A stretch of DNA of 64,000 nucleotides. Source: Eubacteriales bacterium (GTDB lineage: Bacteria > Bacillota > Clostridia > Acetivibrionales > JANLFN01). Shown one piece after another: positions 9,102-42,675 of this stretch; position 1 is the first letter of the stretch; each line of letters begins with the position of its first letter. The stretch covers positions 62,001 to 126,000 of the forward strand of contig JANLFN010000001.1 of assembly GCA_024655885.1 (NCBI GenBank), written 5' to 3'. A program made the position numbers and the translations under genes. The notes under the pieces were generated by a model. The model worked only from the letters and a program-made list of their open reading frames with translations, was not told the origin of the DNA and did not search any database.

Positions 9102-9143
9102 TTTCTATTTCGGAGGGGAAAATAAGCCGGGGGAATTGTTTTG

Positions 9144-10845: not shown

Positions 10846-10846
10846 A

Positions 10847-12157: not shown

Positions 12158-12403
12158 ACATTTCACCTTAAATTTCTTTAATACCTATAGAATACCATAA
12201 TAAAATGAAAAAATCAAACATATGTTCGGTTTATTTAAAAAAATTATCTAAATACTGCCACATAAATATAAAAAATGCAATTAATCTCGGAAAAATTTTC
12301 CTGAATTTAAAAAAATAGCATTTCTACTTAGACGTTTTATATGGTAAAATTATGTTGTACTTTAACCTGAGGTTTATGCAAAAAACAGAAAGAGGAATTT
12401 TTT

Positions 12404-12754: not shown

Positions 12755-12819
12755 AGTACCGAGTGCCGGCTTTTGGAGCCATAGGTATCTGCAGTAAAAT
12801 GCTTTGCGCCTGCTTTTCG

Positions 12820-12866
12820 GGGGACGGTTCTTGCGTCTGGCCTTGCCAGACGCAAGAACCGTCCCC
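12820..12866. repeat. Perfect 21-bp inverted repeat (REP-like), bidirectional terminator candidate
   Basis: GGGGACGGTTCTTGCGTCTGG (first 20 bases shown end at CTG) at 12820-12840 is perfectly complementary to 12846-12866 around the loop CCTTG. It sits between two convergent genes. The GGGGACGGTTCT core resembles palindromic repeats that I recall as dispersed in many clostridial genomes, but only one copy is present here. Confidence 0.8.
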
Positions 12867-12871
12867 TTGTC

Positions 12872-18812: not shown

Positions 18813-19400
18813 TTACTCCGGTTTTTTTACATAAAACTTCTTTTCCGCCAGTTTATCCTGCACGATTCTGAGGGCTTCCCCAAACCTCTGGAAGTGCACA
18901 ACCTCCCTTGCTCTCAAGAACTTAAGGGGCTCTATGACATCCGGGTCGTCGGCCAGGTTAATAAGCCACTCATAGGTTGATCTTGCCTTTTGCTCCGCGG
19001 CCATGTCCTCATAGAGGTCGGTAACAGGGTCGCCTTTGGATTGAATGTACGCTGCGGTAAAGGGATTTCCCGCCGCACTGATAGGATAAACGGCCTTGTC
19101 ATGGTCTGCGTAGTAAGCTCCAAGGTCCGACTCTTTGATTTCCTCAATACTTACGTCATCCATTAGTTGACGTACCATGGAGCCTACGATTTCCAGGTGT
19201 GCGAGTTCTTCGGTACCTATATCGTTCAGTGTTGCCCGTGCCTGGGGTGTGACCATGGAAAACCTCTGGCTTAGATACCTCAGGGATGCGGCCAATTCAC
19301 CGTCCGGCCCGCCGTACTGAGTGATGATATATTTTGCCATTTTGGGGTTGGGATTTTTAATTTTAACAGGGTATTCCAGCTTTTTTTCATAGATCCACAT
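18813..19400 (-). CDS. cotJC: Spore coat protein CotJC, manganese catalase family
   Basis: A 195-residue protein of the CotJC/manganese-catalase ferritin-like family that is placed in the inner spore coat. Metal-ligand-type Glu/His residues are visible in GTEELAHLEIVGSM (about 65-78) and in REVVHFQRFGEAL (about 164-176), and AAEQKARSTYEWL provides another Glu. It probably protects the spore from peroxide, although catalase activity is not proven for all CotJC. It is the third gene of cotJABC, 6 bases after cotJB. Confidence 0.95.
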   Translation of the reverse strand: MWIYEKKLEYPVKIKNPNPKMAKYIITQYGGPDGELAASLRYLSQRFSMVTPQARATLNDIGTEELAHLEIVGSMVRQLMDDVSIEEIKESDLGAYYADHDKAVYPISAAGNPFTAAYIQSKGDPVTDLYEDMAAEQKARSTYEWLINLADDPDVIEPLKFLRAREVVHFQRFGEALRIVQDKLAEKKFYVKKPE

Positions 19401-27489: not shown

Positions 27490-27533
27490 ATATTGGCTGT
27501 AGCATTTGGGTTGATGAAATGGAGGAGTTAGCG

Positions 27534-28061
27534 GTGAATAATAAAAAATTTACAATAATCGGAGGGGATTTGAGGAATATAAAGCTTGCCAACTTAATTG
27601 CAGGTGAAGGAAATAAAGTTAACATATATGGGTTTAAAAATGCGGGCTTTGAGACGGGTATTAAGGAAAGCGAAGACCTGGGCCTTGCTATTGATGAATC
27701 GGATGTTATCATTGGCCCTCTGCCGTGCTCCAATGATAATGAAACCATAAACAGTCCTTTCCACCCCGACAGGATTTACATAAATGAAGTCTTTAAAACC
27801 ATGAACAAAAATCAGTTGTTTATTGCCGGGCGGATTGGAGAAAAAATATCAAACCTTGCTCAAATCTACAATGTCTATTCCATTGATATTTGGGACAGAG
27901 AGGAAATGGCCGTACTGAACGCAATCCCTATTGCGTTACCGAAAGGGGCACACCGGGTCCTGGTTTTAGCACTAGCGACGCTTTTTTCTAAAATGCTCGA
28001 CAGCATATCTGCTGGAAATAACTTGATCTTAAAAAGCATTGCAAAAGCAACGGCCATTTGA
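27534..28061 (+). CDS. dpaA: Dipicolinate synthase subunit A, 5' part, interrupted by a mobile element
   Basis: DpaA (SpoVFA) with DpaB makes dipicolinic acid in the mother cell. Residues 1-132 are real DpaA (KFTIIGGDLRNIKLANLIA, then WDREEMAVLNAIP); the family reading stops at codon 132 (27929). The next 43 codons are element DNA read by chance to a stop at 28059, giving a 175-residue product lacking the C-terminal Rossmann part. GTG 27534 lies 6 bases after GGAGGAG. The missing 3' part lies 14.3 kb away at 42187-42675 in the same orientation. Joining the two at AACGCAATCCC gives a single 290-codon gene, near the normal length of about 300. Confidence 0.95.
   Translation: MNNKKFTIIGGDLRNIKLANLIAGEGNKVNIYGFKNAGFETGIKESEDLGLAIDESDVIIGPLPCSNDNETINSPFHPDRIYINEVFKTMNKNQLFIAGRIGEKISNLAQIYNVYSIDIWDREEMAVLNAIPIALPKGAHRVLVLALATLFSKMLDSISAGNNLILKSIAKATAI
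27918..27928 (+). repeat. attL, left 11-bp core repeat
   Basis: AACGCAATCCC, the left copy of the direct repeat at the point where DpaA homology ends. The element side continues TATTGCGTTACC, whose ATTGCGTT is the reverse complement of AACGCAAT, so the left junction is itself an inverted repeat around CCCT. The likely central crossover dinucleotide is CC at 27927-27928. Confidence 0.88.
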
Positions 28062-28412
28062 ATGACTCCAATAGCAAAAAATAGGATATGCAGCGGTGAA
28101 TGGACCTCAGGATATAACACTGTATAACAATCCACATGCAGAGAATTGCACCAAGGATTCCACTCATATAAGGCCCGTATTTGAATTTAAAACAGGTCAT
28201 TATGCAGGAAGTGACGTTCCCTGCACCTATCACTGTGAATAAAAATATGCCGGAATTAAGAAGCTGCTAAAAGGTGAATTCTTTAGTGCTTGGGCGGCAG
28301 GCATTCCGAATTTGATGCCGCTGGGGTCCGACAGTGCCAACATACCGCCGAAGAATGCGCCTATGCCAACACAAGCCTGTAAAAAAATCAAACAGCGGGT
28401 TAAGACTTTCAT
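27985..28412 (-). pseudogene. Small membrane protein gene broken by two frameshifts
   Basis: From ATG 28412 (with AAGGAG 8 bases before it) the minus strand reads MKVLTRCLIFLQACVGIGAF and so on for about 55 codons, then continues in another frame (GIFLFTVIGAGNVTSCIMTC) after a one-base loss near 28250, and again in a third frame (VHSPLHILFFAIGVIQMAVA) after a shift near 28105. Joined, it would be an approximately 140-residue protein with four hydrophobic segments. I do not recognise the family. Its end lies within about 60 bases of attL. It is antisense to the chance tail of the dpaA 5' part. Sequencing error in one base run cannot be excluded, but two shifts suggest decay. Confidence 0.6.
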
Positions 28413-28454
28413 CCCATGATCTCCTTGTATCCTAATGCGTTTTCATACATTAAG

Positions 28455-28484
28455 TCAAAGCGGCAGAAGATTCTGCCGCTTTGA
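28455..28484. repeat. Perfect 14-bp inverted repeat after the peptide transporter operon
   Basis: TCAAAGCGGCAGAA (28455-28468) and TTCTGCCGCTTTGA (28471-28484) are perfectly complementary. It lies 39 bases after the dppF stop on the minus strand and probably terminates or stabilises that transcript, although no T run is present. Confidence 0.6.
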
Positions 28485-28522
28485 GCAGATATTCCGCTTT
28501 TATTAAGCCCCTTTTTGCTTTA

Positions 28523-29497
28523 TTATATCCCGTCATACAGCCGGCAGGCCACGCGGTGGCCGCCGCCCACATCCTTAAGCTCGGGGAATGTCTCGCCGCA
28601 GCCCTCAAACGCTTTAAAGCAGCGCGAGAAAAAGCGGCAGCCCTTGCCCGGGTCAATGGGGCTTGGCACATCGCCTTTCAGAATAATGCGCTCCTTCTTC
28701 CGGGTAACGTCGGTAGTGGGAATGGCCGAAAACAACGCCTGGGTGTAGGGGTTTAGCGGGTTTTCATACAGCTCGTCCTTTGTGGCAATTTCCATGAGCT
28801 TGCCGAGATACATTACCCCCACTCTGTCGCTGATATGCTTTACCACATTAAGACCATGGGCGATAAACAGGTAGGTAAGGCCGAACTCGTCTTTTAAATC
28901 ACTCAGCAGGTTCAACACCTGGGCCTGAATGGATACGTCCAGCGCCGACACCGGCTCGTCGCACACAATCAGCTTGGGCTGCACTGCCAGTGCGCGCGCA
29001 ATGCCCACACGCTGGCGCTGGCCGCCTGAAAATTCATGGGGATAGCGGTTGCGGTGGTGGTTTGCAAGTCCCACACAGTTGAGCAGGTAGTTCACCCTGG
29101 CCTCCACTTTGTTAGAAGGCAGCAGCTTATTGATGCGTATAGGCTCGGCGATAATGTCGCCGATGGTCATGCGCGGGTTGAGCGAAGCGTAGGGGTCCTG
29201 GAAGATAAGCTGGATATCCCTGCAGTATTCGCGCCGCTTTGTATCGTTTAACGCGGTGAGGTCCTGACCGTTAAAAATGATTGTACCGCTTGTGGGGCGA
29301 TAGAGGTTCACCAGCATCTTGCCGATGGTGGTTTTGCCGCAGCCCGACTCACCCACCAACCCGAAGGTTTCCCCATTGTAGATGTCAAAAGTAACGTCAT
29401 CCACAGCCTTGAGCACTGAGGTGGGGCGTCCCAGCAGGTCGGTTTCCACCGTAAAGTACTTTTTGAGATTCTTAATCTGTACGAGGGGCTCACTCAT
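28523..29497 (-). CDS. dppF: Dipeptide/oligopeptide ABC transporter ATP-binding protein (DppF/OppF)
   Basis: A 324-residue ATPase with Walker A (GESGCGKTT), signature [15 protein letters not shown], Walker B ([12 protein letters not shown]) and the C-terminal oligo/dipeptide-transporter extension with CRFFSRC and later a Cys in GCGETFP, typical of OppF-like proteins. Its start overlaps the dppD end by 8 bases. Codons are markedly richer in G and C at third positions than in dpaA or pnp, as for the whole five-gene block, which suggests later acquisition. It is the last gene of the operon. Confidence 0.93.
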
Positions 29498-30470
29498 CGC
29501 TTTTCACCTCCACTTCATCGCTGTATAAGAAGCACCTGACCTTGACGCCGTCCTTCTCCACAAGGGCGGGCATATGCTCTTTGCATTTCTCCATGCAACG
29601 GTCGCACCGGTCGGAAAATGCGCAACCCTCGGGCATGTGCATGGGGTTTGGCACCATGCCCTTAATCATATACAGGCGCTTGCGGTTGTCGTCCAGCTTT
29701 GGAATGGATTGGAGCAGCCCGACGGTATAGGGGTGCCTGGGGGCGGTAAACAGCGTTTTAACGTCCGCTTCCTCCACAATCTTGCCGCAGTACATGACAA
29801 TCACCCTGTCGGCGGCCTCGGCCACAACGCCCAGGTCATGCGTAATCAGCAGCACGGCCATGTTTAGCTTTTCGCGCAGGCTGTACAAAAGGTCCAGGAT
29901 CTGGGCCTGTATGGTTACGTCCAGCGCTGTGGTGGGCTCGTCGGCAATCAAAAGCTCGGGGTGGCAGGAAAGCGCCATGGCAATCATCACCCTTTGACGC
30001 ATGCCGCCGCTCAGCTGGTGAGGGTAGTCGTACGCCCTTTTCCTGGGCGACGGGATCCCTACCAGATCCAGCATCTCTATGGCGCGATTCAAGGCCTTTT
30101 CCTTTGAAAGCTTCATGTGGGTCATGATGCTTTCCATAAGCTGGTCCTTGATGCGGTATACCGGATTGAGCGAGGTCATGGGTTCCTGGAAGATCATGGA
30201 AATCTGGTCGCCGCGTATCTTTTGCAGCTCGTTCAGGGGCAGCCTGATAAGGTCGCTGCCTTTAAAAAGAATCTCTCCGCCCGCAATTTTGCCCGGCTCG
30301 GAAATAAGCCCCATAATCGAAAGGGAGGTTACGCTTTTGCCTGATCCCGATTCACCTACAATGGCAAGTATCTCGCCCTTATCCACCGAAAAGCTGACGT
30401 CGTTGACGGCGCTCACTACACCTTTTTTTAATCTGAATTCAGTTTTTAAATGTTTTACTTCAAGTAGCAT
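29490..30470 (-). CDS. dppD: Dipeptide/oligopeptide ABC transporter ATP-binding protein (DppD/OppD)
   Basis: A 326-residue ATPase with Walker A ([10 protein letters not shown]), signature [15 protein letters not shown] and Walker B ([12 protein letters not shown]). The C-terminal cysteine motif ([18 protein letters not shown]) is that of the DppD/OppD group, where related Cys can bind a 4Fe-4S cluster. It pairs with DppF on the DppB/DppC permease. AAAGGTGG lies 8 bases before the ATG; it follows dppC by 15 bases. High G+C codon use like its neighbours. Confidence 0.93.
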
Positions 30471-30485
30471 AGCTGTGTACCACCT

Positions 30486-31388
30486 TTAAATTTTCCTCGA
30501 TTTGGGGTCAAGTGCGTCGCGCAGCCCATCGCCCAGCAGGTTAAATGCCAGCACCGTAATGGTGATGGCGATGCCGGGGAAGACGAGGGTATGGGGGGCG
30601 GAGAAGATAAAGCCTCGCGCACGCCCAAGCATATCGCCCCATTCCGCGAAGGGCGGCTGCACGCCAAGCCCCAAAAAGCCGAGGGCCGAAGTATCCAGTA
30701 CCGCTGTGGAAATGCCGAGGGTTGCCCTTACCACAATGGAGGAGAGAATATTGGGTACGATATGCTTAAAAACGATGCGCACATCCTTGTTGCCCACCAC
30801 CTTTGCCGCCTGCACATAATCGTTTTCTTTTACCGACAGGATACAGCCGCGCACGATTCTTGCATACTCGGGGATGGAAACGAGGCCTATGGCGATAACC
30901 GCCTTGTCGATGCCCTTGCCCAGCGCCGCCATAAACGCAATGGCAAGCAGGATGGACGGGATGGCGAGCATCATGTCCATGAAGCGCATAATCACGGCAT
31001 CGGTTTTGCCTCCCCGGTAACCGGCCACGGCACCCAGAATGGTGCCGATGGTCAGCGAAATAGCCACCGCGGAAAGGCCCACGGTAAGGGAAATGTGCGT
31101 GCCGTCGATAATCCTTGAAAAGATATCCCTGCCCAACTGGTCGGTTCCAAACCAGTGGGCGGTGCTGGGAGGCTGAAAGCTTATGGCCATGTCGGAATAG
31201 TTGGGGTCATAAGGCATAAGCCATTTGCCGAAGATGGCCACAAAGGTAAGAATTGCAATGATAATAAGCCCCGCAACGGCGCCCTTGTTGGAGATAAGGG
31301 AGGCCCACATTTCTCTAAGCTGCGATTCCGGCTTTTCCAAAACCTCGGTGGTCTGTATGGCGGATATATTGTCTGTGTTGTTCTCCAT
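30486..31388 (-). CDS. dppC: Dipeptide/oligopeptide ABC transporter permease (DppC/OppC)
   Basis: A 300-residue permease with an N-terminal cytoplasmic tail, then six membrane segments. The OppC N-terminal signature is present (FGKWLMPYDPNYSDMA, HWFGTDQLGRDIFSR), as is the EAA loop (AAKVVGNKDVRIVFKHIVPNI). ATG 31388 is 8 bases from AAGGAGG, and that site lies within the end of dppB (3-base gap between genes). Forms the channel with DppB. Confidence 0.94.
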   Translation of the reverse strand: MENNTDNISAIQTTEVLEKPESQLREMWASLISNKGAVAGLIIIAILTFVAIFGKWLMPYDPNYSDMAISFQPPSTAHWFGTDQLGRDIFSRIIDGTHISLTVGLSAVAISLTIGTILGAVAGYRGGKTDAVIMRFMDMMLAIPSILLAIAFMAALGKGIDKAVIAIGLVSIPEYARIVRGCILSVKENDYVQAAKVVGNKDVRIVFKHIVPNILSSIVVRATLGISTAVLDTSALGFLGLGVQPPFAEWGDMLGRARGFIFSAPHTLVFPGIAITITVLAFNLLGDGLRDALDPKSRKI

Positions 31389-31391
31389 GAG

Positions 31392-32408
31392 CTACGCCTC
31401 CTTTTTGGAATACTTGATGCGCGGGTCTAAAAAAGCGTAGATAACGTCTACAATCAGGTTAATAATCACAAAGGTGATTGCCACCAGCATTACCACGCCC
31501 TGGACCACCGGAAAGTCGGACTTTAAAATGCAGTTGACGGTGTAAGCGCCTATCCCCGGCCAGGAGAATACCGTTTCGGTGAGCACCGCGCCTCCTAAAA
31601 GCGAACCGAACTGAAGGCCGATCACCGTTACAATGGGGATAAGCGCATTGCGCAGCGCATGCCTTCTTATCACCCTGCCTTCGGTTACGCCCTTTGCCCG
31701 CGCCGTTCGTATGTAGTCCTGCTCCAGCGTTTCCAGCATGCTGGAGCGCGTCATGCGCGCGATAATGGCCATTGAGTACATGCCAAGCGCGCAGGACGGC
31801 AATATCAGATGAACCAGTGTGTCGGCAAAAGACTGCAGGTTGCCGGTAAGCAGGCTGTCGATAAGGAAAAAGCCGGTCACCGTGGCAGGCTGCAAAAGCG
31901 GGTCGGCCCTGCCGCCCGACGGCAGGATGTGCAGGGTACCCGAAAAGATGATAATCAGGATAATGCCAAGCCAGAAGATTGGCATGGAAACGCCGATCAG
32001 CGCGGTGACCATCCCTGCACTGTCAAACACCGAGTTTTTCTTAACCGCCGATATGGCGCCAATGATAATGCCGAAGAGGGAGGCAAAAAGGATTGACGAG
32101 ACGGCCAGCTCGATGGTAGCGGGAAAACGGGCAAAAATTTCTTCTAGCACCGGCGTTTTCGTATAGTAAGAATGGCCCAGATCGCCGGTAATCACGCCTT
32201 TAATGAAGTTGAAATATTGGATGTGCAAAGGGGCGTTAAGGCCGTTTACCTCACGCCACGCATTTGCCATTTCGACGGTGGCATGCTGCCCCAGCACAAT
32301 GGGCGCCGGGTCGGGTGAAAACACCCGCATGATGACAAAAACGATGATGGAAACGCCGATTAAAACCGGAATCAGCATCAAAAGCCGTTTAATAATGTAT
32401 TTCAGCAT
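31392..32408 (-). CDS. dppB: Dipeptide/oligopeptide ABC transporter permease (DppB/OppB)
   Basis: A 338-residue permease with six membrane segments. OppB/DppB features: N-terminal KYIIKRLLMLIPVLIGVSI, GDLGHSYYTKTPVLEEIFAR, and the EAA loop (ARAKGVTEGRVIRRHALRNA). ATG 32408 is chosen; two in-frame TTG codons just upstream (32417, 32414) are alternatives because the ribosome site (AAAGG) is weak. It is the first permease gene after the binding protein gene and is separated from it by two large hairpins. Confidence 0.93.
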   Translation of the reverse strand: MLKYIIKRLLMLIPVLIGVSIIVFVIMRVFSPDPAPIVLGQHATVEMANAWREVNGLNAPLHIQYFNFIKGVITGDLGHSYYTKTPVLEEIFARFPATIELAVSSILFASLFGIIIGAISAVKKNSVFDSAGMVTALIGVSMPIFWLGIILIIIFSGTLHILPSGGRADPLLQPATVTGFFLIDSLLTGNLQSFADTLVHLILPSCALGMYSMAIIARMTRSSMLETLEQDYIRTARAKGVTEGRVIRRHALRNALIPIVTVIGLQFGSLLGGAVLTETVFSWPGIGAYTVNCILKSDFPVVQGVVMLVAITFVIINLIVDVIYAFLDPRIKYSKKEA

Positions 32409-32545
32409 CCGCAACAAACCTTTCGTAGGAGTTAATATGCGCGTTTATGTCACTGTAAAAGGTGGACCGTATATCACGCTTTGCATATGCCGGAGGATTC
32501 AGGCACATGCAAAGCGCCACGCCCCATTACAAAAAGCTTAATGTC

Positions 32546-32580
32546 GGAAGACGGCAAAATTCAACGAATTGCCGTCTTCC
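32546..32580 (-). repeat. Hairpin 2 between dppA and dppB
   Basis: GGAAGACGGCAA (32546-32557) pairs with TTGCCGTCTTCC (32569-32580), with two extra A residues bulged near the loop. On the transcribed minus strand it follows the perfect hairpin at 32594-32638 and precedes TTAAGCTTTTTG. It may be a partial terminator lowering permease expression. Confidence 0.65.
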
Positions 32581-32593
32581 GGCTGTCAGCGGC

Positions 32594-32638
32594 CCAAATC
32601 GAATAGGTTTAAGCAAAGCTTAAACCTATTCGATTTGG
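32594..32638 (-). repeat. Perfect 21-bp hairpin directly after dppA
   Basis: The 21 bases beginning CCAAATCGAATAGG (32594-32614) are perfectly complementary to 32618-32638 around an AAA loop. It lies 11 bases past the dppA stop on the transcribed minus strand. Such a structure usually protects the binding-protein mRNA 3' end. Confidence 0.75.
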
Positions 32639-32648
32639 AATATAAAAA

Positions 32649-34208
32649 CTATTTGTTTTTCGACATCCCGGATAAGAAAACATTGCCCGTTACATGGTAG
32701 TAATAGCCCTGAACCTTAGGACTGTATGCGGAAAGGAGCTTAGAGTGCGAAACCAGCAGCCACGGATTCTGGTCGGCCTGAATCTTCTCAAGCTGTGCGT
32801 AGATATCGTCGCGCTCCGGGCCTTCAGGGGTCGCCTTGCCTTTCGCAATAAGTTCGTTGTACTGAGGGTTGTCGTAGCGGGCCACGTTCATGGTCGGGTC
32901 TTTGTCGGAGAGCAGAGCCATGAAGTTGTCGGGGTCGCCGTTGTCGCCCGTCCAGCCATAGAAACAGATGTCGTAGTCACCGGCCTTTATCTTCTGTTTA
33001 TAGGTTGTCCAGTCGAACACCTCAATGTTGCAGGTGACGCCCACTTTGGACAGGTAGCCCTGAACTGCTTCGGCAAGCGCCTGGCCGGTGGCGGTGTTGT
33101 AAGGCCTGGGGTTGGAGTAGGTGATCATATGAACGCTGGTAATGCCTGCTTTTGCAAGTGCTGCCTTGGCGGCTTCAGGGTCATAGGCGACCTGCTTTAC
33201 ATCCTTGGCAAAGCCGGGCACAAAGCTGGGCAGGATGGAATCGGCAGGAGAAGCATAGCCCTGATAGAGGCTCTTCACCAGCTCGGGTACATTGATTGCC
33301 TGGGAGAATGCCTTTCTGTTTTCAGGCTTGCTGAAAATGGGAGAGGTGGTATTGTAGGCCATGTAGTTGATGTTCATGCCGTCGGGCTGGTCAACCACAT
33401 TGCCGGCTTTGGTAATCTGGTCCACTACCGTGGCGTCGATGCCGTCAATCATGTCAACCTCGCCGTTGTTGAGCGCCACCACCCTGGCGGAGTTGTCCTT
33501 GATAATTTTAAAGATAACATTTTTGGTTTTCGCCTTTTCTCCCCAATAATCGTCGTTCCTGACCAGAACAACGGCCTGGTCCTTATCCCATCTAACAAAC
33601 TTATAGGGACCAGTGCCGACGGGATGCTCGTTTACATTGTTGTTGTTGTCCTGCAGTGCCTTGGGGCTTACCATGGGCGCTGCAATGCTCATGGCAAGGT
33701 TGTACAGGAAAGGCGTGCAGACATCCTTTAAAGTGATTACAACAGTGTATTCATCGACAGCCTCTACCTTGGTAACATAGCCGTATACGAAATCGGCGTA
33801 ACTCATATCCTGGGTGGCCTTGCCCTTCATCTGGCGCTCGATGTTGAACTTGACGGCCTCGGCATTGAAGTCGGTGCCGTCATGGAACTTCACGCCCTTG
33901 CGCAGATGGAAGGTGTAGGTTAAGCCGTCCTTGCTTACATCCCACGATTCGGCTAGGCAGGGCTCAAGTTTGGTGGAATCTTTCGCATACTTTAAAAGGC
34001 CCTCATAGATGTTAACGATAACCTTGGAGGATTCGCCGTCATCCACCAGCGCGGGGTCAAGCCCTCTTGGTTCCGCGCCCTGCGCAAAGATCAGCGTGTC
34101 GGTCGAAGCTTGAGTTGGGCTCTGCTGTCTGCTGCCGCATGCCGTAAAGGTGAGGCACAACAGAACCGTGGCCAGCACAACACAAAATACTCTTTTTACT
34201 GTGTTCAT
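32649..34208 (-). CDS. dppA: Dipeptide/oligopeptide ABC transporter substrate-binding lipoprotein
   Basis: A 519-residue SBP_bac_5 lipoprotein. The signal peptide ends in the lipobox FTAC (Cys24). Family motifs are LDPALVDDGESSKVIVNIYEGL, TYTFHLRKGVKFHDGTDFNAEAV (limit: shown to FHDG in the sequence) and VGTGPYKFVRW. Ligand is probably small peptides; nickel or other solutes are possible in this family. I start at ATG 34208 after GAGGAAGAGAG; the longer upstream frame lacks a site and would bury the signal peptide. It heads the operon dppA-B-C-D-F within the dpaA element. Confidence 0.92.
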   Translation of the reverse strand: MNTVKRVFCVVLATVLLCLTFTACGSRQQSPTQASTDTLIFAQGAEPRGLDPALVDDGESSKVIVNIYEGLLKYAKDSTKLEPCLAESWDVSKDGLTYTFHLRKGVKFHDGTDFNAEAVKFNIERQMKGKATQDMSYADFVYGYVTKVEAVDEYTVVITLKDVCTPFLYNLAMSIAAPMVSPKALQDNNNNVNEHPVGTGPYKFVRWDKDQAVVLVRNDDYWGEKAKTKNVIFKIIKDNSARVVALNNGEVDMIDGIDATVVDQITKAGNVVDQPDGMNINYMAYNTTSPIFSKPENRKAFSQAINVPELVKSLYQGYASPADSILPSFVPGFAKDVKQVAYDPEAAKAALAKAGITSVHMITYSNPRPYNTATGQALAEAVQGYLSKVGVTCNIEVFDWTTYKQKIKAGDYDICFYGWTGDNGDPDNFMALLSDKDPTMNVARYDNPQYNELIAKGKATPEGPERDDIYAQLEKIQADQNPWLLVSHSKLLSAYSPKVQGYYYHVTGNVFLSGMSKNK

Positions 34209-34483
34209 CACTCTCTTCCTCTCTTTCAAATATTTTACATGAAAAAAAGGCACTTGCCTTAAACGGCAAGCATCCTCGCTTATTGTGTTTACTATAATAT
34301 CACAAATAAGCCGATTAAACAATGGGTAAATAACATAAAACCACGGCTGACGCACGAAATTTATCTACAACCGACAGCCCGTCGGGAGTTTTTAAACAAA
34401 ATATTCAAAAAACGGATTAAACAGCCACATTTTTATTCATCTGTAATAAAATGGAATTAGAAATAAAAAAGTAGGGAATAAAA

Positions 34484-35755
34484 ATGGAAACATTGACTTT
34501 AGGTTCTACAGGTCCAAATGTAAAATTGATTCAGAGTCTTCTCAGCAGAATCGGCTATAATGCCGGCACGGTAGACGGGGAATTCGGGCCGCAAACCCGG
34601 CAGGCGGTCACAGCTTTTCAGAGAAACAACGGACTCGTTCCCGACGGGGTTGTCGGTCCTTCGACGTGGAGTGTGTTTGAAAGGCTTCTTTTAGGTTATG
34701 ATATCTATAGGGTCCGACCGGGTGATACTTTATACAATATAGCCCGAAGATATTTTACCACTTTAAACGCCCTATTCACTGCAAATCCGGGAATAAACCC
34801 AAATGCATTGGCCGTAGGGCAGCAGATTGTAGTGCCTTATGGAATAGATATTGTGTTTACCGATATCGACTACACTTACGACATCATGGAGAGACAAATA
34901 CGAGGGCTTAGAGTGAGGTATCCGTTTATTGAGGTGGGCGTTGCCGGAAGCAGTGTTATGGGTAAGAATCTATATAGTATAAGGCTTGGAAGAGGTTCCA
35001 ACCAGGTGTCATACAACGCATCCCACCATGCCAATGAATGGATTACCACACCTTTGCTGATGAAGTTTGTTGAAAATTTTGCAAAGGCCTATTCAATTGG
35101 AGGGCGTATGAGAGGCTACAGCATTCCTGATCTATGGAACCGCAGCAGCATGTATATTGTACCTATGGTTAATCCTGACGGAGTCGACCTGGTTAATTAC
35201 TGGCCCAACTATACAGATCCGGTGTACCGGCAGGCAGCCCGGTTAAATACTACCGGGCTGCCTCTGCCAAGTGTATGGAAAGCCAACATCCGGGGTACTG
35301 ACTTGAATTTGAATTATCCTGCGGACTGGGAAAGAGAACATGAGCTTGAAATAGCGCAGGGGATAACCGGGCCGGCCCCAAGAGACTATGGAGGTCCCGC
35401 TCCTCTGTCAGAACCTGAATCTACTGCCATGGTAAGCTTTACAGGGCAGCACAACTTCAGGCTGGTCATTGCATACCATACCCAGGGAGAAGTAATATAC
35501 TACCAGTATGAAAACCTTCAGCCTCCTGAATCATTGACCATAGCCCAGCTGTTTTCAAGGGCCAGCGGCTATATAATCTCCCAGAACCCTGGAGAAGCTT
35601 CCTATGCAGGATATAAGGACTGGTTCATTCAAGAGTACAGGAGACCCGGGTTTACCATTGAAGTGGGGAGAGGTGTAAATCCTATCCCTACGTCCCAGTT
35701 CCCCGTCATATACCAGCAGAATGAGGAAATTTTGCTGCTGGGTGCTTTAGTATAA
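34484..35755 (+). CDS. PG-binding/LysM/M14 zinc carboxypeptidase, gamma-D-glutamyl endopeptidase-like
   Basis: A 423-residue cell-wall enzyme: peptidoglycan-binding domain 1 at residues 5-65 (IQSLLSRIGYNAGTVDGEFG), LysM at 74-119 (YRVRPGDTLYNIARRY) and an M14 peptidase from about 128. Zinc ligands His182 and Glu185 (HHANEW) and the later His in IAYHTQGE are visible; the catalytic Glu is in FTIEVGRG. There is no signal peptide, as in the Lysinibacillus endopeptidase I that acts on D-Glu-diaminopimelate bonds of the sporulating cell. A sporulation role is therefore plausible. It is the first plus-strand gene of the element, divergent from dppA (275 bases). Confidence 0.92.
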   Translation: METLTLGSTGPNVKLIQSLLSRIGYNAGTVDGEFGPQTRQAVTAFQRNNGLVPDGVVGPSTWSVFERLLLGYDIYRVRPGDTLYNIARRYFTTLNALFTANPGINPNALAVGQQIVVPYGIDIVFTDIDYTYDIMERQIRGLRVRYPFIEVGVAGSSVMGKNLYSIRLGRGSNQVSYNASHHANEWITTPLLMKFVENFAKAYSIGGRMRGYSIPDLWNRSSMYIVPMVNPDGVDLVNYWPNYTDPVYRQAARLNTTGLPLPSVWKANIRGTDLNLNYPADWEREHELEIAQGITGPAPRDYGGPAPLSEPESTAMVSFTGQHNFRLVIAYHTQGEVIYYQYENLQPPESLTIAQLFSRASGYIISQNPGEASYAGYKDWFIQEYRRPGFTIEVGRGVNPIPTSQFPVIYQQNEEILLLGALV

Positions 35756-35783
35756 GTGATTTACTCTATTTTAAAAGGGCGTC

Positions 35784-35817
35784 GGCATCAGAAGATTTGC
35801 TTCCGGTGCCTTTTTAA
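35784..35817 (+). terminator. Terminator after the M14 peptidase gene
   Basis: GGCATCAGAAG (35784-35794) pairs with CTTCCGGTGCC (35800-35810) around ATTTG, with two mismatched or wobble positions, followed by TTTTTAATTTT. The rest of the 252-base gap before the decarboxylase gene shows nothing clear. Confidence 0.8.
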
Positions 35818-36007
35818 TTTTCACTATTACACAATAAAGGCTGGATTCTCATAATATAAAGAATGGTAAATAGTAGCAAAACTATTTTTGTAACTATATG
35901 AACCGCGAAAAAGAAATTACAATGTAAAATCATTTTCACGCTCAATACATTCAAAGTTTCAGCACTGGTGGACATTTGACTGAAAGAAGAAAGGAAGGTA
36001 AAACCAA

Positions 36008-37465
36008 GTGAGCAAAATAAGCCAGGAAAAAACCCCGCTGTTTGATGCCGTAAAGAAATATATCGAGGATAAGGTAATCCCTTTTCATGTACCCGGTCAC
36101 AAGCAAGGGCGCGGAATACCTGAACTAAAAAACTATATAGGTGGTTATATCCTCAATATGGATGTGAACGGCATGGAGGATCTGGATTACATAAACAACC
36201 CTACAGGGGTTATATGTGAAGCTGAAAAATTAATGGCCCTCGCCTTTGGCGCACAAGAGGCTTTTTTCCTCGTAAACGGGACCACTTCAGGAGTGCAGGC
36301 AATGATTATAAGTGCCTGTGATCCCGGAAACAAAATTATTATCCCCAGGAACGCACATAGATCGACCATCGGTGGAGTTATCCTGAGCGGAGCCATCCCT
36401 GTTTATGTACAACCTGAAATAAATAAAGAACTGGGGATTGCTATGGGTGTTACGGTAGAAAGCATTAAAACGGCCATCAGGCAGAATCAGCATGCAAAAG
36501 CCCTATTTCTCATAAATCCTACATATTATGGGGTTGCTTCAGATATAAAATCCATTGTAAGAATTGCCCATATCAACGATATGGTAGTTATGGTGGATGA
36601 AGCCCATGGCGCACATATGCCGTTCCATGATGACTTTCCTTTAACGGCCATGGAAGTAGGAGCGGATATGAGTGCTGCCAGTATGCATAAAACCGCCGGC
36701 TCATTAACTCAAAGCTCGGTTCTGTTAACGAGGGGCAATAGAGTTTCTCCAGATAAGATAAAGCATGTGCTAAGCCTTATGTACACATCAAGCGCTTCCT
36801 ACCTGCTCATGTGCTCGCTGGATGTAGCACGCAAGCAAATGGCAACAAAAGGAAATGAAATGCTGGAAGAGACCCTCCAGCTTGTCCGATGGGCCAGGAA
36901 GGAGTTAAACCAAATTGAAGGGATATATGCATTCGGCAAGGAAATTGCCCGAACACCAGGGTGCTGGGATTTTGACGAAACCAAACTCGGCATTAACATA
37001 AGGGGACTGGGTTATACAGGATACCAGATGGAAGAGAAGCTCAGGAAAGAATACAATATACAGATTGAACTGTCTGATCTGTACAATATTCTTGCTGTGG
37101 TGACAATAGGCGACAGGAAGGAAGACCTTCAGGCGCTTATTGACGCGTTGAAGGATATAGCCTCCAAAACCAAGGTGTCCGTGCTAAAAAACGCTACAAT
37201 CGTTCCTCCCACTCCCGAAATGATTGTATCTCCCCGCGACGCATTTTATAATCCTAAAAAATCTGTAAGGCTTGAGGAATCAGAGGGGGAAATTGCCGGA
37301 GAAATGATCATGGCATATCCCCCCGGAATACCTGTAATATGCTTGGGTGAGCGCATTACGAAAGATGTTATTGATTATATAAAAATATTGAAGGGGGAGA
37401 AGTGCCAGCTGCAGGGTACTTCCGACCCGCATGTGAACTACGTCAGGGTGCTTGGCCGTGAATAG
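36008..37465 (+). CDS. Orn/Lys/Arg decarboxylase family protein (SpeA-like)
   Basis: A 485-residue fold-type I PLP enzyme. The N-terminal PFHVPGHKQG, the NGTTSGVQAM loop (residues 90-99), VMVDEAHGAH (195-203) and the PLP lysine Lys228 in SMHKTAGSLTQSS match the short SpeA/YaaO/lysine decarboxylase group of Firmicutes. Probable reaction is decarboxylation of arginine (agmatine for polyamines) or lysine; the sequence alone does not decide. GTG 36008 follows AGGAAGG. It is plus-strand cargo of the dpaA element and converges on the EamA gene 10 bases further. Confidence 0.93.
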   Translation: MSKISQEKTPLFDAVKKYIEDKVIPFHVPGHKQGRGIPELKNYIGGYILNMDVNGMEDLDYINNPTGVICEAEKLMALAFGAQEAFFLVNGTTSGVQAMIISACDPGNKIIIPRNAHRSTIGGVILSGAIPVYVQPEINKELGIAMGVTVESIKTAIRQNQHAKALFLINPTYYGVASDIKSIVRIAHINDMVVMVDEAHGAHMPFHDDFPLTAMEVGADMSAASMHKTAGSLTQSSVLLTRGNRVSPDKIKHVLSLMYTSSASYLLMCSLDVARKQMATKGNEMLEETLQLVRWARKELNQIEGIYAFGKEIARTPGCWDFDETKLGINIRGLGYTGYQMEEKLRKEYNIQIELSDLYNILAVVTIGDRKEDLQALIDALKDIASKTKVSVLKNATIVPPTPEMIVSPRDAFYNPKKSVRLEESEGEIAGEMIMAYPPGIPVICLGERITKDVIDYIKILKGEKCQLQGTSDPHVNYVRVLGRE

Positions 37466-37475
37466 CCTTGCCCTC

Positions 37476-37889
37476 CTATAGGCTGAGGGCGATTCCCAGA
37501 ATAACCAATACGGCGCCGATCACTCTAAGAAGAGTGATCGGTTCGTTGAGGAAAATAGCCGCGAACATGATGGTGACCAGCGGGGAGCTGGACATGATGA
37601 TGGTAACCAGAGAAACTTCTCCTCTCTTTATGGCGGCATAATAGGCCAGGTCTCCTACCAGCGTGGCAAGAAGGGCTTCAATTCCAATAAATACCCATGT
37701 GTTTAGCGTTATGGCTTTAAAATTTATGCTGTTTCCACTGAATAAAGTCCATAAGATAATCATACAGGCTGCAAAAAGGGTTCTTATGGTGAGGCCGGTC
37801 ACAGAATTCACATTTTTCAATGCCAGCTTGGCGAATATGGGAGCGATTCCCCAGCACACCATTCCGAAAATAGCCAAAAAAAAGACCAT
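37476..37889 (-). CDS. Single-domain EamA-type membrane transporter
   Basis: A 137-residue membrane protein with five hydrophobic segments and one EamA/DMT repeat (FGMVCWGIAPIFAKLALKN, and LNEPITLLRVIGAVLVILGI). Full EamA transporters carry two such repeats, so this half-size form must work as a dimer. ATG 37889 is about 10 bases after AGGAG; an earlier ATG (37919) adds ten basic residues and is possible. Substrate unknown. Minus strand, within the dpaA element. Confidence 0.88.
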   Translation of the reverse strand: MVFFLAIFGMVCWGIAPIFAKLALKNVNSVTGLTIRTLFAACMIILWTLFSGNSINFKAITLNTWVFIGIEALLATLVGDLAYYAAIKRGEVSLVTIIMSSSPLVTIMFAAIFLNEPITLLRVIGAVLVILGIALSL

Positions 37890-38062
37890 GATCTTTTTTC
37901 TCCTGATAATAATTAACATAATTTTTTCCTTTATCGGAAGGTATTTCTCAATAAAACTATGTTGTCAAAATGCCTTTTAGTACAGGAAAATTTTAAAAGT
38001 TTAAACCTGTTTGCAATGTAAATAATATTTACAGTTTATCTTCAATTAAGGACGGTTTTATA

Positions 38063-39010
38063 ATGGGACAGAAACATAGATTTCTCTTTGCAGCCATATT
38101 GCTCTTGTGCCTGGAAGCAATATTGTGCTGGCATAAGTTCAACCATGGGATGGGTATTAAGATAAATCCGGCGTACAAAAACAGGATGGTGGAATGCGAA
38201 AATGAATCCGGCGGTCAGCAGGAACCCATCCCGGAAAGCGAAAAAACAATAAATTCGGGACCTGTTAAGATTTTACCCTGGGAGAACGATGAGAATTTTA
38301 TAAACGCCAGGACAAAAAACGGGACAAACGTGCTGATGGGTGCCTATCGCACCGTTTTAAGGGATCCCCTCCCCGGTGAAGAATATAATGTGCACCTGGC
38401 TGCAGAAAGGCTGGCGGGAATGGTTGTAAAGCCGGGGGAGATTTTTTCCCAGAATGCAAGCTTAGGCCCGTACACAGAAGGAAGAGGATACAGAAAAGGG
38501 CCTACCTATATGGGGACACGTCTTACTACGACGGTAGGGGGTGGGGTGTGCAAAATTGCATCTACACTTTATAATACAGTGGTTTTGAGTGACCTCCAGG
38601 TCATTGAGCGCCATGCCCACAGCATGCCCGTACCCTATGTGCCATACGGCCAGGATGCTACGGTAGCTTACGGCGCAAAGGATTTCAAATTTAAAAATAA
38701 TACCGATGCCCCCATATTAATATGGGCCCAAGGAATTGACAATATTCTCTATATTGCTTTTTACGGGATAAAAAGTCCCCCTACGGTGGAATGGAACCAT
38801 AAGATACTTCAAGTCTTCGAAGCACCGCGTATATACAGGATCAACCCTGACCTGCCGCCTTCAGAAGAAAAGGTGAAAGTGGAAGGCATGGATGGAGCCG
38901 TTGTAATGTCCTGGGTAACAGTAACAGACAGCAACGGAATGGTTTTTACAAAACGAATGGGCGATAGCTATTACTCTCCTATGCCCTATTTAATTGAAAA
39001 AGGAAAATAA
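38063..39010 (+). CDS. VanW family cell-surface protein
   Basis: A 315-residue protein with an N-terminal membrane/signal segment (residues 6-23) and a VanW domain (about 110-245: VVKPGEIFSQNASLGPYTEG, TTVGGGVCKIASTLYNTVV, HAHSMPVPYVPYGQDATVAYG). VanW proteins are common in Clostridia; the function is unknown, although the name comes from a vancomycin resistance cluster. It has no neighbouring van genes. Start ATG follows AAGGACGG. Cargo of the element. Confidence 0.92.
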   Translation: MGQKHRFLFAAILLLCLEAILCWHKFNHGMGIKINPAYKNRMVECENESGGQQEPIPESEKTINSGPVKILPWENDENFINARTKNGTNVLMGAYRTVLRDPLPGEEYNVHLAAERLAGMVVKPGEIFSQNASLGPYTEGRGYRKGPTYMGTRLTTTVGGGVCKIASTLYNTVVLSDLQVIERHAHSMPVPYVPYGQDATVAYGAKDFKFKNNTDAPILIWAQGIDNILYIAFYGIKSPPTVEWNHKILQVFEAPRIYRINPDLPPSEEKVKVEGMDGAVVMSWVTVTDSNGMVFTKRMGDSYYSPMPYLIEKGK

Positions 39011-39154
39011 ATCATAACTTTTCTCTTCCATTAATACATCTTAATTATATGTACTCAACCGGATATTTAACCACGAAATTTGCCGTAAAGGGATTTAAAT
39101 CAAAGCAGAATTCATAGCTTTACTTGTTGTAAAGCCGGAACGGAGGAAGGGAAA

Positions 39155-40402
39155 ATGCTTTCGATAAAACTAAGTACAGGCCGCTCATTATGGAATACAT
39201 CTTTTCCCATGTTCCTGATTTCTCAAAGTGCTTCAGGCCTAGGAGATGCGGTAAGGTTTATTGCTTTGACCGCATTGCTGGTACAGATATCCGGGTCAGG
39301 CCTGTCGGCGGCCTTGGGCCTGGTATTTTCAATAGTTCCATCCCTTGTTTTGTCGCTTTTTGCGGGAAGCGTGGGAGATCTCCTGCCGGAGAAAACTCTT
39401 TTGATATCTCTGGAATTAGTGCGGAGTGCAGTTTTAATGATGTTCATTAATTGCGCCGAGATACCCTTGATTTACGGACTGCAGATGATCCTCTCCTCCT
39501 TGGATGCGATTTTTAATCCACCGTTAAGAAAAATAATGGCAAATCTGCTGGGGGAAAAAATTTTGCGCGGCAATGCAATATTCAACGGTGTATCCGGCAT
39601 GACCAATATATTCGGCTCCCTGCTCTCAGCGGTAATAATAAGCCGATGGAATATAAAAGCGGCCTTACTGACAAGCTGCTATTTACACGCCATATCCGCC
39701 GTATTCCTGCTTTTTACAAGAACAGGAGGCCGCCACCAAAAGGCGCCCGGCGGTGAAAAAAAAGCCCACACAAGTGTTTGCAGCAATATTAAAAACGGCG
39801 TGATGTACATAAAAGCCAAAAAACAAATACGCGAAATCATAATGGCCAATACGGTGCTGTGTTTCGGGGCCGTCGCCACCACCATGGCCTTCTACCCTTA
39901 TGCCTTTGATGTTTTAAAGATGACCCAGAAAGAGTGGGGGCTTTTGATGTCCATATTTTACGGGGCCAATTTCATTGCAATGCTTCTATCCCCGGGGCTG
40001 CAGGAAAACTTTAAAAGGAAGGGCCTGTTTTCAACATATTTAATATTTATATTTATATCGGGAATCTGGCTTTTATATGGAAGCCTGGAAACTGCCGCAC
40101 CGGTGTTTATTTTGCAGTTGCTCGAGGGAAGTGCGGTGGCCTTATGCGGCATATTTCTGGTAACCATGCAGCAGTCCATAACCGAAAGACGGTATCTTGC
40201 AACCACCACCGGCATCAGTGATTTTATCGCCAGTATAGGAAAAACCGTTGGATTAGGCTATGCTTATACGGCTATGAGCCTATGGTCCGTCAGGCATGTT
40301 TTTGTTATAAACGCGGCAGTCCTCTCATTATACGCAGTCTATAAAATAAGCCTCCTGCTAAATCATAGAGGGAGCGCAGCCATAAGAAGTAAGAGTCATT
40401 AG
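39155..40402 (+). CDS. MFS family transporter
   Basis: A 415-residue protein with about 12 hydrophobic segments, opening with FLISQSASGLGDAVRFIALT, a pattern seen in MFS_3-type putative exporters. The loop between halves is basic and hydrophilic (RTGGRHQKAPGGEKKAH). Substrate unknown. ATG lies 3-10 bases after GGAGGAAGGG. Its stop is 42 bases before the small recombinase-associated gene, so the right-end genes may share a transcript. Confidence 0.9.
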   Translation: MLSIKLSTGRSLWNTSFPMFLISQSASGLGDAVRFIALTALLVQISGSGLSAALGLVFSIVPSLVLSLFAGSVGDLLPEKTLLISLELVRSAVLMMFINCAEIPLIYGLQMILSSLDAIFNPPLRKIMANLLGEKILRGNAIFNGVSGMTNIFGSLLSAVIISRWNIKAALLTSCYLHAISAVFLLFTRTGGRHQKAPGGEKKAHTSVCSNIKNGVMYIKAKKQIREIIMANTVLCFGAVATTMAFYPYAFDVLKMTQKEWGLLMSIFYGANFIAMLLSPGLQENFKRKGLFSTYLIFIFISGIWLLYGSLETAAPVFILQLLEGSAVALCGIFLVTMQQSITERRYLATTTGISDFIASIGKTVGLGYAYTAMSLWSVRHVFVINAAVLSLYAVYKISLLLNHRGSAAIRSKSH

Positions 40403-40444
40403 ACAATCCCCCGGCTTAATAGATTAGTTGAGGGTGAGTTTCTT

Positions 40445-40612
40445 TTGGAGAGCCGGGAAAGCCACATTTCTTTAAAACTTCAGATAGGAATTATTAAAGA
40501 GCTGTATAAGCAAAATCTCTTAACCGAAAATCAGATGCAATGTTGTCTTGATGTAATTACATCATACGGGAAGAGACTTGAAACTTCCATAGACTATAGT
40601 GAACGAGAGTGA
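40445..40612 (+). CDS. 55-residue protein upstream of the recombinase, candidate excision cofactor
   Basis: A short frame beginning at TTG 40445, 6 bases after GAGGGTGAG, and ending with TGA at 40610-40612, just before the recombinase ribosome site. The product starts LESRESHISLKLQIGIIKEL and contains LYKQNLLTENQMQCCLDVI, a helix-turn pattern similar to short SHOCT-like helices. I do not recognise it further. Serine integrases need a small recombination directionality factor for excision; in C. difficile skin that protein is encoded in the element. Tight coupling to the recombinase makes this a candidate, which is inference only. Confidence 0.6.
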   Translation: MESRESHISLKLQIGIIKELYKQNLLTENQMQCCLDVITSYGKRLETSIDYSERE

Positions 40613-40630
40613 AAAAAAGAGGTGCACCTT

Positions 40631-42244
40631 ATGATGAGAGTTGCGGCCTATTGCAGGGTATCCACCGACAAAGGCGACCAGGTAAACTCCCTTGAAAATC
40701 AAAAAAGATATTTCAAAGAATATATCATGAAAAACGAGGGATGGGAGTTTGTAAACCTGTATGTGGATGAAGGCATCAGCGGTACAAATGTAAAAAGGCG
40801 TTCAGGCTTTCGGCAAATGGTTGCGGATGCGGAGAATAACAAGTTTGACCTGCTGCTGACAAAGGAAATCAGCCGGTTTGCGCGAAATACCCTGGACAGC
40901 ATATTTTACATCAGAAAGCTTAGATCCAAGGGAATAGGCATTATTTTCATGAATGACAATATCAATACCCTTGACCCCGACAGTGAGCTGCGCCTTACCA
41001 TTATGGCCAGTATAGCCCAGGAGGAGAGCAGGAAAATATCCGAGCGGGTCAAGTGGGGACAGAAGAGGTCCATGGAAAACGGGGTTGTTTTTGGCAGCAG
41101 GATCTATGGCTATGATATAAAAAACGGGAAAATATACGTAAACGAGCGTGAGGCTGAGGTAGTCAAGCTGATATTTAAGCTGTATTATGAGGAGGGTATG
41201 GGAACTCATTTAATAGCTAAAAAATTAGACGGTATGGGGATACGGACACCTTCCGGAGCCCAAATTTGGAGTAATGCCACTATCCTAAAAATATTAAAAA
41301 ACGAAAAATATAAAGGACAATTAAAGCAAAAAAAGGAAATCACCACCGACTTTCTTACTCATTCAAGGAAAGCAAACAGGGGCGAGGAAGAATTTATTGT
41401 AATAGAGGACAACCATGAGGCCATTATTGATAAAAATATGTTTGACGCGGTCCAGCAGGAGATAAAAAGAAGAAGCCGCCATGAATCTTCCGGGACAAAA
41501 TATTCAAACAGGTATGTGTGGTCGGGAAAGATTATTTGCGGCTTATGCGGGGCCAAATTCAAAAGGAAAGTATGGCACAGCGGAAAGGCATATCAGAGAG
41601 TTGTATGGCAGTGCACCGAAAATATAAAGTATGGCAGCGAAAATTTCGATGAAGAAGGCCGGAAGAAGGGATGCAGCTGCAAAGCTGTCCCTGAAACCGT
41701 ACTGGAGCAATTGTTTTTATGGGTTCTATCCGACGTGGTGAAAAATAAAAGCGAAGTGGTAAAAAACCTTGAAAATGCAATATTTAAAGCTCTGGGGCAA
41801 TCTGAAAACGCACAGGCTTTGAATGAGGCCTTGTCCCGGATAAATAAATTAAAAAGGCGGAAAGAAAGGCTTATCGATTTATACTCCGACGGTTTAATTA
41901 CAAAGAATGAATTTACACAGAGAAATGATGAATACAATAAACAGCTTGAAGGGTTGGACCGGCAGCTTGGAAAGAGAGGAGAACCGGGTGAAAACCAAAA
42001 GGAAAATGAAAGATGGCTTCAAAAAATCAAATCAACGGTAGAAGAACTGGTAAATGCAAATGTTTTTAGTGAAGAGATATGTAAGCAGCTGCTAAATAAA
42101 ATAATCATTTATGACAGGCACCATTTCAAAATCATTTTTAACGGAAACATTGAGAAACAAGCATTCCTAGACGTATTCCCACCGATAACGCAATCCCAAC
42201 TGCAGAAGGAGCAATCCAGATTGCCATGGAGGAAATGCCCATAA
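40631..42244 (+). CDS. Large serine recombinase (SpoIVCA/CisA-like) of the dpaA element
   Basis: A 537-residue site-specific recombinase: resolvase catalytic domain at residues 1-145 (nucleophile Ser in AAYCRVSTDKGDQ; Arg in ISRFARNTLD), recombinase domain about 155-265 (VVFGSRIYGYDIKNGKIYVNE), zinc ribbon with CGLCGAKF and a later Cys pair (CSC), and a coiled-coil C-terminus. ATG 40631 or 40634 follows GAGGTG. The frame passes the attR core at 42187-42197 and ends in dpaA DNA, so its last residues depend on integration state: after circularisation it would end LLRYRKGHTGSWF (535 residues in all). It is oriented toward attR. Confidence 0.95.
   Translation: MMRVAAYCRVSTDKGDQVNSLENQKRYFKEYIMKNEGWEFVNLYVDEGISGTNVKRRSGFRQMVADAENNKFDLLLTKEISRFARNTLDSIFYIRKLRSKGIGIIFMNDNINTLDPDSELRLTIMASIAQEESRKISERVKWGQKRSMENGVVFGSRIYGYDIKNGKIYVNEREAEVVKLIFKLYYEEGMGTHLIAKKLDGMGIRTPSGAQIWSNATILKILKNEKYKGQLKQKKEITTDFLTHSRKANRGEEEFIVIEDNHEAIIDKNMFDAVQQEIKRRSRHESSGTKYSNRYVWSGKIICGLCGAKFKRKVWHSGKAYQRVVWQCTENIKYGSENFDEEGRKKGCSCKAVPETVLEQLFLWVLSDVVKNKSEVVKNLENAIFKALGQSENAQALNEALSRINKLKRRKERLIDLYSDGLITKNEFTQRNDEYNKQLEGLDRQLGKRGEPGENQKENERWLQKIKSTVEELVNANVFSEEICKQLLNKIIIYDRHHFKIIFNGNIEKQAFLDVFPPITQSQLQKEQSRLPWRKCP
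42187..42197 (+). repeat. attR, right 11-bp core repeat
   Basis: AACGCAATCCC, identical to the left copy. Element DNA precedes it (CACCGAT) and dpaA follows (AACTGCAGAAGG). The circle junction made from the element ends would read TAACGCAAT, CCCT, ATTGCGTTA, an inverted repeat as expected of attP. Confidence 0.88.
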
Positions 42245-42675
42245 CTCTTCATGACAGCAAGGCACTCGTACTGGGCTTCGGGAGGGTCGGAAAAATACTG
42301 TCGAAAATGTTGAGCGGAATTGGAGCGGAGGTATACGTGGAGGCGCGTAAATATTCCGATATCTCATGGATCAGAAGCTACGGCTATAATCCCGTATCCC
42401 TCAACCATGTCTCCGAATATCTTCCGGGAATGGATGTGATATTCAATACCATCCCAAGTGTAATATTAGGCAGTGATTTGCTCAGCAAGATAAAAAAGGA
42501 GACCCTGATTATAGATCTCGCTTCAAAACCCGGCGGGGTTGACTTTGATATGGCTAAAAAGCAGGGCTTGAGAACAATCTGGGCTCTATCGCTGCCAGGC
42601 AAGGTAGCGCCCATTACTGCGGCTAAGTTTATAAAAGAAACCGTATACAACATCATTGACGAGCTGGGGGTGTAA
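42187..42675 (+). CDS. dpaA: Dipicolinate synthase subunit A, 3' part
   Basis: Carries the last 162 codons of DpaA with no start of its own: NAIPTAEGAIQIAMEEMPIT leads into a Rossmann NAD(P)-binding site (LVLGFGRVGKILSKML) and the family C-terminus (ASKPGGVDFDMAKKQG, ALSLPGKVAPITAA). A methionine at 42226 could be misread as a start, but family homology extends upstream of it to the att core, and no ribosome site precedes it. Frame and orientation match the 5' part at 27534; the two join within N-A-I-P at residues 129-132. It ends 3 bases before dpaB. Confidence 0.94.
   Translation, partial: NAIPTAEGAIQIAMEEMPITLHDSKALVLGFGRVGKILSKMLSGIGAEVYVEARKYSDISWIRSYGYNPVSLNHVSEYLPGMDVIFNTIPSVILGSDLLSKIKKETLIIDLASKPGGVDFDMAKKQGLRTIWALSLPGKVAPITAAKFIKETVYNIIDELGV

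Follow-up and report, generated by a model that had tools for sequence, protein, structure and literature searches.

A 55-codon gene ahead of a large serine recombinase is a candidate directionality factor of elements splitting dpaA and cotJC in Clostridia

Introduction

In the 64,000-nucleotide stretch of DNA of a Eubacteriales bacterium analysed here (hereafter the window), a 55-codon gene lies directly ahead of a large serine recombinase (LSR) gene, and both are placed inside an element that splits dpaA. The locus raises the question whether the product of this small gene is the recombination directionality factor (RDF) by which the recombinase would excise the element during sporulation. 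Known sporulation-gene-intervening elements include skin, vfbin, gin, yin and SP-beta. The RDFs of serine integrases seem mutually unrelated and have usually been found singly, by experiment.

RDFs through which an LSR restores a split sporulation gene are already a known kind (SprB, CD1234 and GirX). The first-pass annotation of the locus, made from the sequence, rightly cited as established the RDF carried by the skin element of C. difficile: this is CD1234, a protein of 72 aa, with the LSR CD1231 being constitutive and mother-cell control exerted via sigma-E and SpoIIID (PMC5025042). In B. cereus the gin element, located in gerE, has as RDF the 42 aa GirX, on which excision depends in vitro and which there blocks GirC-mediated integration (PMC5595907), and the putative yin RDF is of 53 aa (PMC10747680). 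The integrase YokA of phage SP-beta is directed by SprB/YotN, which acts through the LSR coiled coil (PDB 9dxd; PMC12191101). According to two papers citing it (PMC10747680 and PMC5595907), vfbin is an excisable element in spoVFB of B. weihenstephanensis.

Results

A 14.27 kb element splits dpaA in the window

The gene dpaA encodes dipicolinate synthase subunit A. Its 5' part (nt 27519–27928, + strand) runs to the left core AACGCAATCCC (attL, nt 27918–27928, + strand), and its 3' part (nt 42187–42675, + strand), with dpaB directly after it, begins with a second copy of AACGCAATCCC (attR, nt 42187–42197, + strand), thus delimiting an element of 14.27 kb (nt 27918–42186). Joining at the core leads to an intact, uninterrupted DpaA frame (...NAIP followed across the joint by TAEGAIQIAMEE...), such as is found in the unsplit dpaA of G001, a genome of the same family. 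Beside the cores an inverted repeat, CCGATAACGCAAT-CCCT-ATTGCGTTACCG, was read from both junctions, as expected of a palindromic LSR attP. A split gene, a repeated core, a frame restored on joining and a recombinase with matching att arms were therefore all found, as in a sporulation-gene-intervening element. The split copy is the only dpaA of this genome, and an intact cotJC is present in the window at nt 18813–19400 (− strand).

The LSR gene (nt 40634–42244, + strand), which carries Resolvase, Recombinase and Zn ribbon domains, has its probable start at ATG 40634, with its own AGAGG, and an in-frame alternative GTG at 40622. Its product is related by sequence to the SP-beta integrase YokA (E about 1e-20). 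Since the gene runs through the right att junction, the LSR C-terminus is encoded by dpaA DNA, and the last residues (frame 40622–42244) would change on excision.

The cargo of the element (nt 28523–40402) is metabolic and was assigned by inspection to peptide ABC-transporter genes, an M14 peptidase with LysM, an Orn/Lys decarboxylase, an EamA transporter, a VanW-like protein and an MFS transporter. Four of these genes (Orn/Lys decarboxylase, EamA, VanW and MFS) are shared by nt 36008–40402 of the window and nt 8848–13206 of the Ruminiclostridium cotJC element L017, with the order of the block inverted.

The small gene is conserved

On direct reading of the window, the small gene (nt 40445–40612, + strand) starts with TTG at 40445, comprises 55 codons and ends with TGA at 40610–40612. 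The first-pass annotation had described a TTG start with GAGGGTGAG (the ribosome-binding region, nt 40430–40438, + strand) six bases upstream and a stop just before the recombinase; both were borne out, the gap to the LSR being 9–21 nt according to whether the latter starts at GTG 40622 or at ATG 40634. The small ORF and the LSR stand in one frame, with a single TGA between them (nt 40610–40634).

The encoded protein gave no match above cut-off in Pfam, PHROGs or NCBIfam, none in Pfam even at E 10, and tblastn against phages retrieved nothing. Searches with the single sequence retrieved homologues from Ruminiclostridium only, in four genomes and with 44–45% identity, each directly upstream of an LSR ~45% identical to that of the window. 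Among the four Ruminiclostridium copies the small gene is under purifying selection (pS about 0.12, pN about 0.03). Because homologues precede homologous LSRs, selection is purifying and a family profile finds the gene almost solely beside related LSRs (see below), the 55-codon ORF is a real conserved gene, beyond chance, whose translation is predicted.

The family profile was iterated on the ORFs upstream of the LSRs in a set of 81 loci, 80 of them from genome contigs scanned with an LSR alignment and one from a viral-collection contig. Members were recognised in 66 of the 81 loci, with three more at weaker scores; the homology search proposed at the outset thus did find the same small protein elsewhere, upstream of related LSRs in about 70 loci. 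The proteins are 38–97 aa long (median 57, for the 66 members and three dpaA copies), and family starts are mostly ATG with a Shine-Dalgarno sequence. The best-conserved positions are L20 (66/69) and Q30 (62/69), followed by F/I8, K/Q13, G/A15, I/V16, L/I26 and T/S27. No convincing Pfam, NCBIfam or PHROG match was obtained for any family member, nor did the family profile, when run against the PDB, match the 9dxd chain carrying YotN.

When 245 Clostridia genomes were searched with the profile independently of the LSR, 25 of the 28 matches immediately preceded an LSR belonging to this clade, and the remaining three were weak, with the worst or near-worst scores. A six-frame scan of the 24,630 ORFs of the LSR loci gave 67 matches immediately upstream of the LSR and seven elsewhere, of which five belonged to loci whose LSR was without an adjacent strict match. 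The small gene lies apart from the LSR in L080 (by 2.9 kb), L024 (1.2 kb) and L098 (0.6 kb), stands ahead of a second, tandem LSR in L067, and overlaps the LSR in some loci. Since as much as 2.9 kb can lie between it and the LSR, it probably acts in trans and not as a leader. Within the locus sequence scanned, no family member was found in L023, L025, L026, L091 and L097; its automatic absence from L095, L096 and L017 is an artefact (frame limits, weak score or locus unscanned).

Elements splitting dpaA and cotJC share the same pair of genes

In most other genomes of the window's order dpaA is intact, and a split at about codon 134 was also found in G401, G416 and G429. Both in G401 and in G416 the small gene and the LSR (51% and 61% identical to the window LSR, respectively) lie directly ahead of the dpaA 3' part, split at the same codon as in the window, and the element-side left arm is conserved in both G416 and G429. 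The cargo of the G401 and G416 elements, where sequence was available, is unlike that of the window, and the small gene is present at all three readable right ends of dpaA elements in this order. Beyond the left end in G416 (L152) and G429 (L153), inspection pointed to defence-like genes (HEPN/nucleotidyltransferase-like, SIR2-like and Schlafen-like). A dpaA element of 2.7 kb in Clostridium viride DSM 6836 (L099) consists of the small gene, the LSR and one further gene. In L091 the dpaA 3' half seems to be interrupted again: residues 118–252 and 245–289 are encoded some 4 kb from each other, which hints that this gene holds two elements.

A split sporulation gene was found at 69 of the 81 LSR loci, this being dpaA in four cases and in 65 cotJC, which codes for a manganese-catalase-like spore-coat protein. 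In these 65 loci the cotJC fragment ends near residue 62, in 51 of them less than 300 bp from the LSR end, and in most loci other than the window (L021–L101, e.g., L027, L050, L071 and L095) the LSR 3' end abuts the CotJC fragment. The LSR element splitting cotJC at about codon 62 is a widespread and apparently undescribed sporulation-gene-intervening element. No account of cotJC- or dpaA-intervening elements was found in the open-licence literature, a prior description elsewhere being possible.

Nineteen loci contain both gene halves, with elements ranging from 2.3 to 10.6 kb, and the small gene is kept in the smallest ones (2.3 kb in L050, 2.6 kb in L035 and 2.7 kb in L099). In the 2.3-kb element the LSR is the sole ORF of at least 80 codons, accompanied by the small gene. 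The cotJC matches of L050 and L086 were flagged as full, and L050 was examined by inspection; an apparent tRNA-Ser gene was read by eye at nt 11602–12117 of this locus. Overall, the small gene is the only gene that stays with the LSR through complete cargo turnover, and a tandem module of small gene and LSR is, on comparative grounds, kept in elements splitting cotJC and dpaA across Clostridia.

The small protein is predicted to form a helical hairpin

The short helical sequence noticed in the first-pass annotation was recovered in the AlphaFold2 model built on the family alignment, in which the small protein forms a two-helix hairpin (helices 2–22 and 28–51; pLDDT >90 over residues 11–40). 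In the LSR model the coiled-coil helices span residues 391–418 and 424–449 and are joined by the turn DGLIT (419–423), the turn of the small protein being QNLLT. Alignment of the two families with hhalign returned a single alignment, at the coiled-coil tip (residues 409–437; p = 0.032), and the profile score for homology to the coiled-coil tip was barely over that of shuffled LSRs.

Two-helix hairpins are a generic fold, and the structural searches are to be read in this light. Foldseek with the small-protein model gave nothing at E <0.001; the LSR coiled coils 5uae, 9dxh and 4kis were among the structural matches of the small protein, not set apart from other hairpins, and VIA-align Z values of 6–7 for integrase coiled coils were equalled by parts of RNA polymerase. 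The resemblance of the small hairpin to the LSR coiled-coil tip is, in these models, suggestive only.

The SHOCT domain (PF09851), likewise a short hairpin of helices whose turn reads Gly-Leu/Ile-Thr, was also considered, and a weak SHOCT score was obtained within the LSR coiled coil (E = 0.043). Membership of the small protein in this family was rejected, given that neither the window copy nor 63 relatives matched PF09851 and that they have LT..Q instead of IT.EEF.

Promoter-like sequences point to the mother cell in relatives of the window gene

The first-pass annotation had also proposed mother-cell synthesis of the small protein as a possible trigger of dpaA repair. A sigma-E-like pattern (ATA-N15-19-CATA) was found in 30 of 68 regions of 150 bp upstream of the small genes. 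Dinucleotide shuffles gave 5.9 ± 2.3, and among 1084 control genes taken from these loci 81 (7.5%) had the pattern (Fisher p = 7e-15), a statistic that is inflated, and overstates independence, because the loci are related. The commonest spacing is 17, with CATA mostly 24–46 nt before the small-gene start. A sigma-A promoter for the small genes was considered and dismissed, sigma-A-like sites not being enriched (1/68 versus 3.0 in shuffles).

The window gene itself has a poor sigma-E match and no clear sigma-E promoter upstream, so that the better hint there is a SpoIIID-like box, TTAGACAATC (nt 40399–40408, + strand), 46 nt upstream of the TTG. The box matches WWRRACARNY, which we take to be the SpoIIID consensus, with a background of 4.2% per 100 bp on the strand. 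A similar box lies 44–56 nt upstream of the small gene in all three readable dpaA copies, against 4 of 66 other loci. Mother-cell synthesis is thus favoured by the sigma-E-like promoters of many relatives and by the SpoIIID-like boxes of three dpaA copies, whereas the part of the claim that concerns the window gene itself finds no convincing sigma-E promoter there. Dipicolinate is produced in the mother cell (PMC5629000), which makes a mother-cell repair of dpaA sensible. The small gene, lying directly ahead of the LSR, is probably co-transcribed with it, and the switch would then be the expression of the pair and not of the RDF alone.

Discussion

Because its family sits beside the recombinases of elements splitting sporulation genes, the 55-codon gene is read here, as in the first-pass annotation, as the RDF of the adjacent LSR, a function that we consider probable. 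The comparative side of this reading is strong, comprising the constant pairing with the LSR, its persistence through cargo turnover and in the smallest elements, and the copies detached from the LSR; the activity itself is a prediction. As with RDFs of this class, the small gene lies inside the same element as its LSR, and does so in the related elements too. The module of small gene and LSR would be transcribed in the mother cell, where the hairpin protein would bind the LSR and make it recombine attL x attR instead of attP x attB; the element would depart as a circle, dpaA would be joined in frame, and dipicolinate could be made. Against the RDF reading stand the LSRs of the clade without a family member, the window copy without a clear sigma-E promoter and structural matches that are not significant. 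Known LSR RDFs are, moreover, often encoded away from the integrase, and if both genes are made together integration should be disfavoured, which also counts against it.

The small protein may instead be a partner of the LSR with another role, either an inhibitor holding the LSR inactive during vegetative growth or an accessory factor that integration and excision alike require. The same pairing, action in trans and hairpin would be expected of such a partner, and a coiled-coil mimic could inhibit as well as redirect; nevertheless, the two genes seem to be jointly expressed from promoters of the mother-cell type, in the compartment where excision of the element is required, and a vegetative inhibitor should have a vegetative promoter of its own, at odds with the lack of enrichment of sigma-A-like sites, so that we hold this role unlikely. 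A regulator of the LSR gene, be it an autorepressor or a leader ORF coupling LSR translation, would agree with the small distance between the ORF and the LSR start and with the overlaps seen in some loci. What makes it quite improbable is that amino acids are conserved under purifying selection, that the gene is found at a distance from the LSR (L098, L024 and L080) or before a tandem LSR (L067), and that the family matches no helix-turn-helix family, its members having mixed pI values and the window protein an acidic one.

There is very little likelihood that an unrelated small gene, e.g., for a toxin or a peptide precursor, merely travels with the recombinase, or that the ORF is non-coding: a weak match of the window protein to TIGR04194, over 17 residues and below the cut-off (E = 0.0038), would speak for the former, but it occurs in only 1 of 63 family members, and the gene persists in the smallest elements and through full exchange of the cargo.

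How such an RDF could act is suggested by the SP-beta integrase, in which the coiled-coil tips stabilise the pre-recombination tetramer and lock the product dimers, and in which the RDF governs the coiled coil (PMC12191101). These tip contacts and their control make tip mimicry an attractive, unproven mechanism for the small protein. More speculatively, the hairpin would imitate the LSR coiled-coil tip and so undo the contact between tips by which the attL/attR product complexes are locked.

In size the small protein fits the RDFs of known sporulation elements, as represented by GirX, CD1234 and the putative yin factor. Compared by description, CD1234 is likewise a small element-encoded protein with no family match, required alongside its LSR for the repair of a split sporulation gene and under mother-cell control, but it does not immediately precede its LSR, is longer (72 aa against 55 codons) and restores sigK instead of dpaA. 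GirX, also compared by description, shares the absence of a known motif, the expression of girX and girC in sporulation and an element, gin, that is not phage-like; it differs in lying distant from girC within the element and in host class and target gene. SprB/YotN is a small RDF too, and its integrase YokA is a relative of the window LSR, although it is encoded by a separate gene in a large prophage. The vfbin element, as far as the citing papers describe it, similarly splits a dipicolinate synthase subunit gene, but that of the beta subunit in Bacillus, whereas the window has the alpha subunit (dpaA) split in Clostridia by another recombinase/small-protein module. With CD1234 and GirX compared in this way, what appears to be new is the small-protein family, together with the constant position of its gene ahead of the LSR and the breadth of cotJC and dpaA elements; no report of the family was found in the open-licence literature, where an earlier description elsewhere is possible.

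A wider proposal, about which we are more doubtful than confident, is that an undescribed family of tiny directionality factors mimics the LSR tip, that a self-sufficient two-gene excision module, made up of such a factor and its LSR, has colonised the mother-cell genes cotJC and dpaA throughout Clostridia, and that programmed repair is far commoner than the known cases indicate. An RDF family recognisable by sequence and position would supply candidates for dozens of integrases in one step, which would help both in studying what sets the direction of recombination and in building reversible genome-engineering tools. The splitting of sporulation genes (cotJC foremost, and dpaA) and their repair in the mother cell would be widespread in gut and environmental Clostridia, and split genes in Clostridia assemblies can wrongly pass for a loss of sporulation functions.

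Two groups of contigs in the locus set carry labels that call for care. The LSR of L101, an IMG/VR contig filed as viral, adjoins a cotJC fragment and may therefore belong to a chromosomal element and not to a virus. The MAG contigs L021, L022 and L024–L026 are labelled archaeal and harbour close relatives of the clostridial LSR, these labels being probably binning errors.
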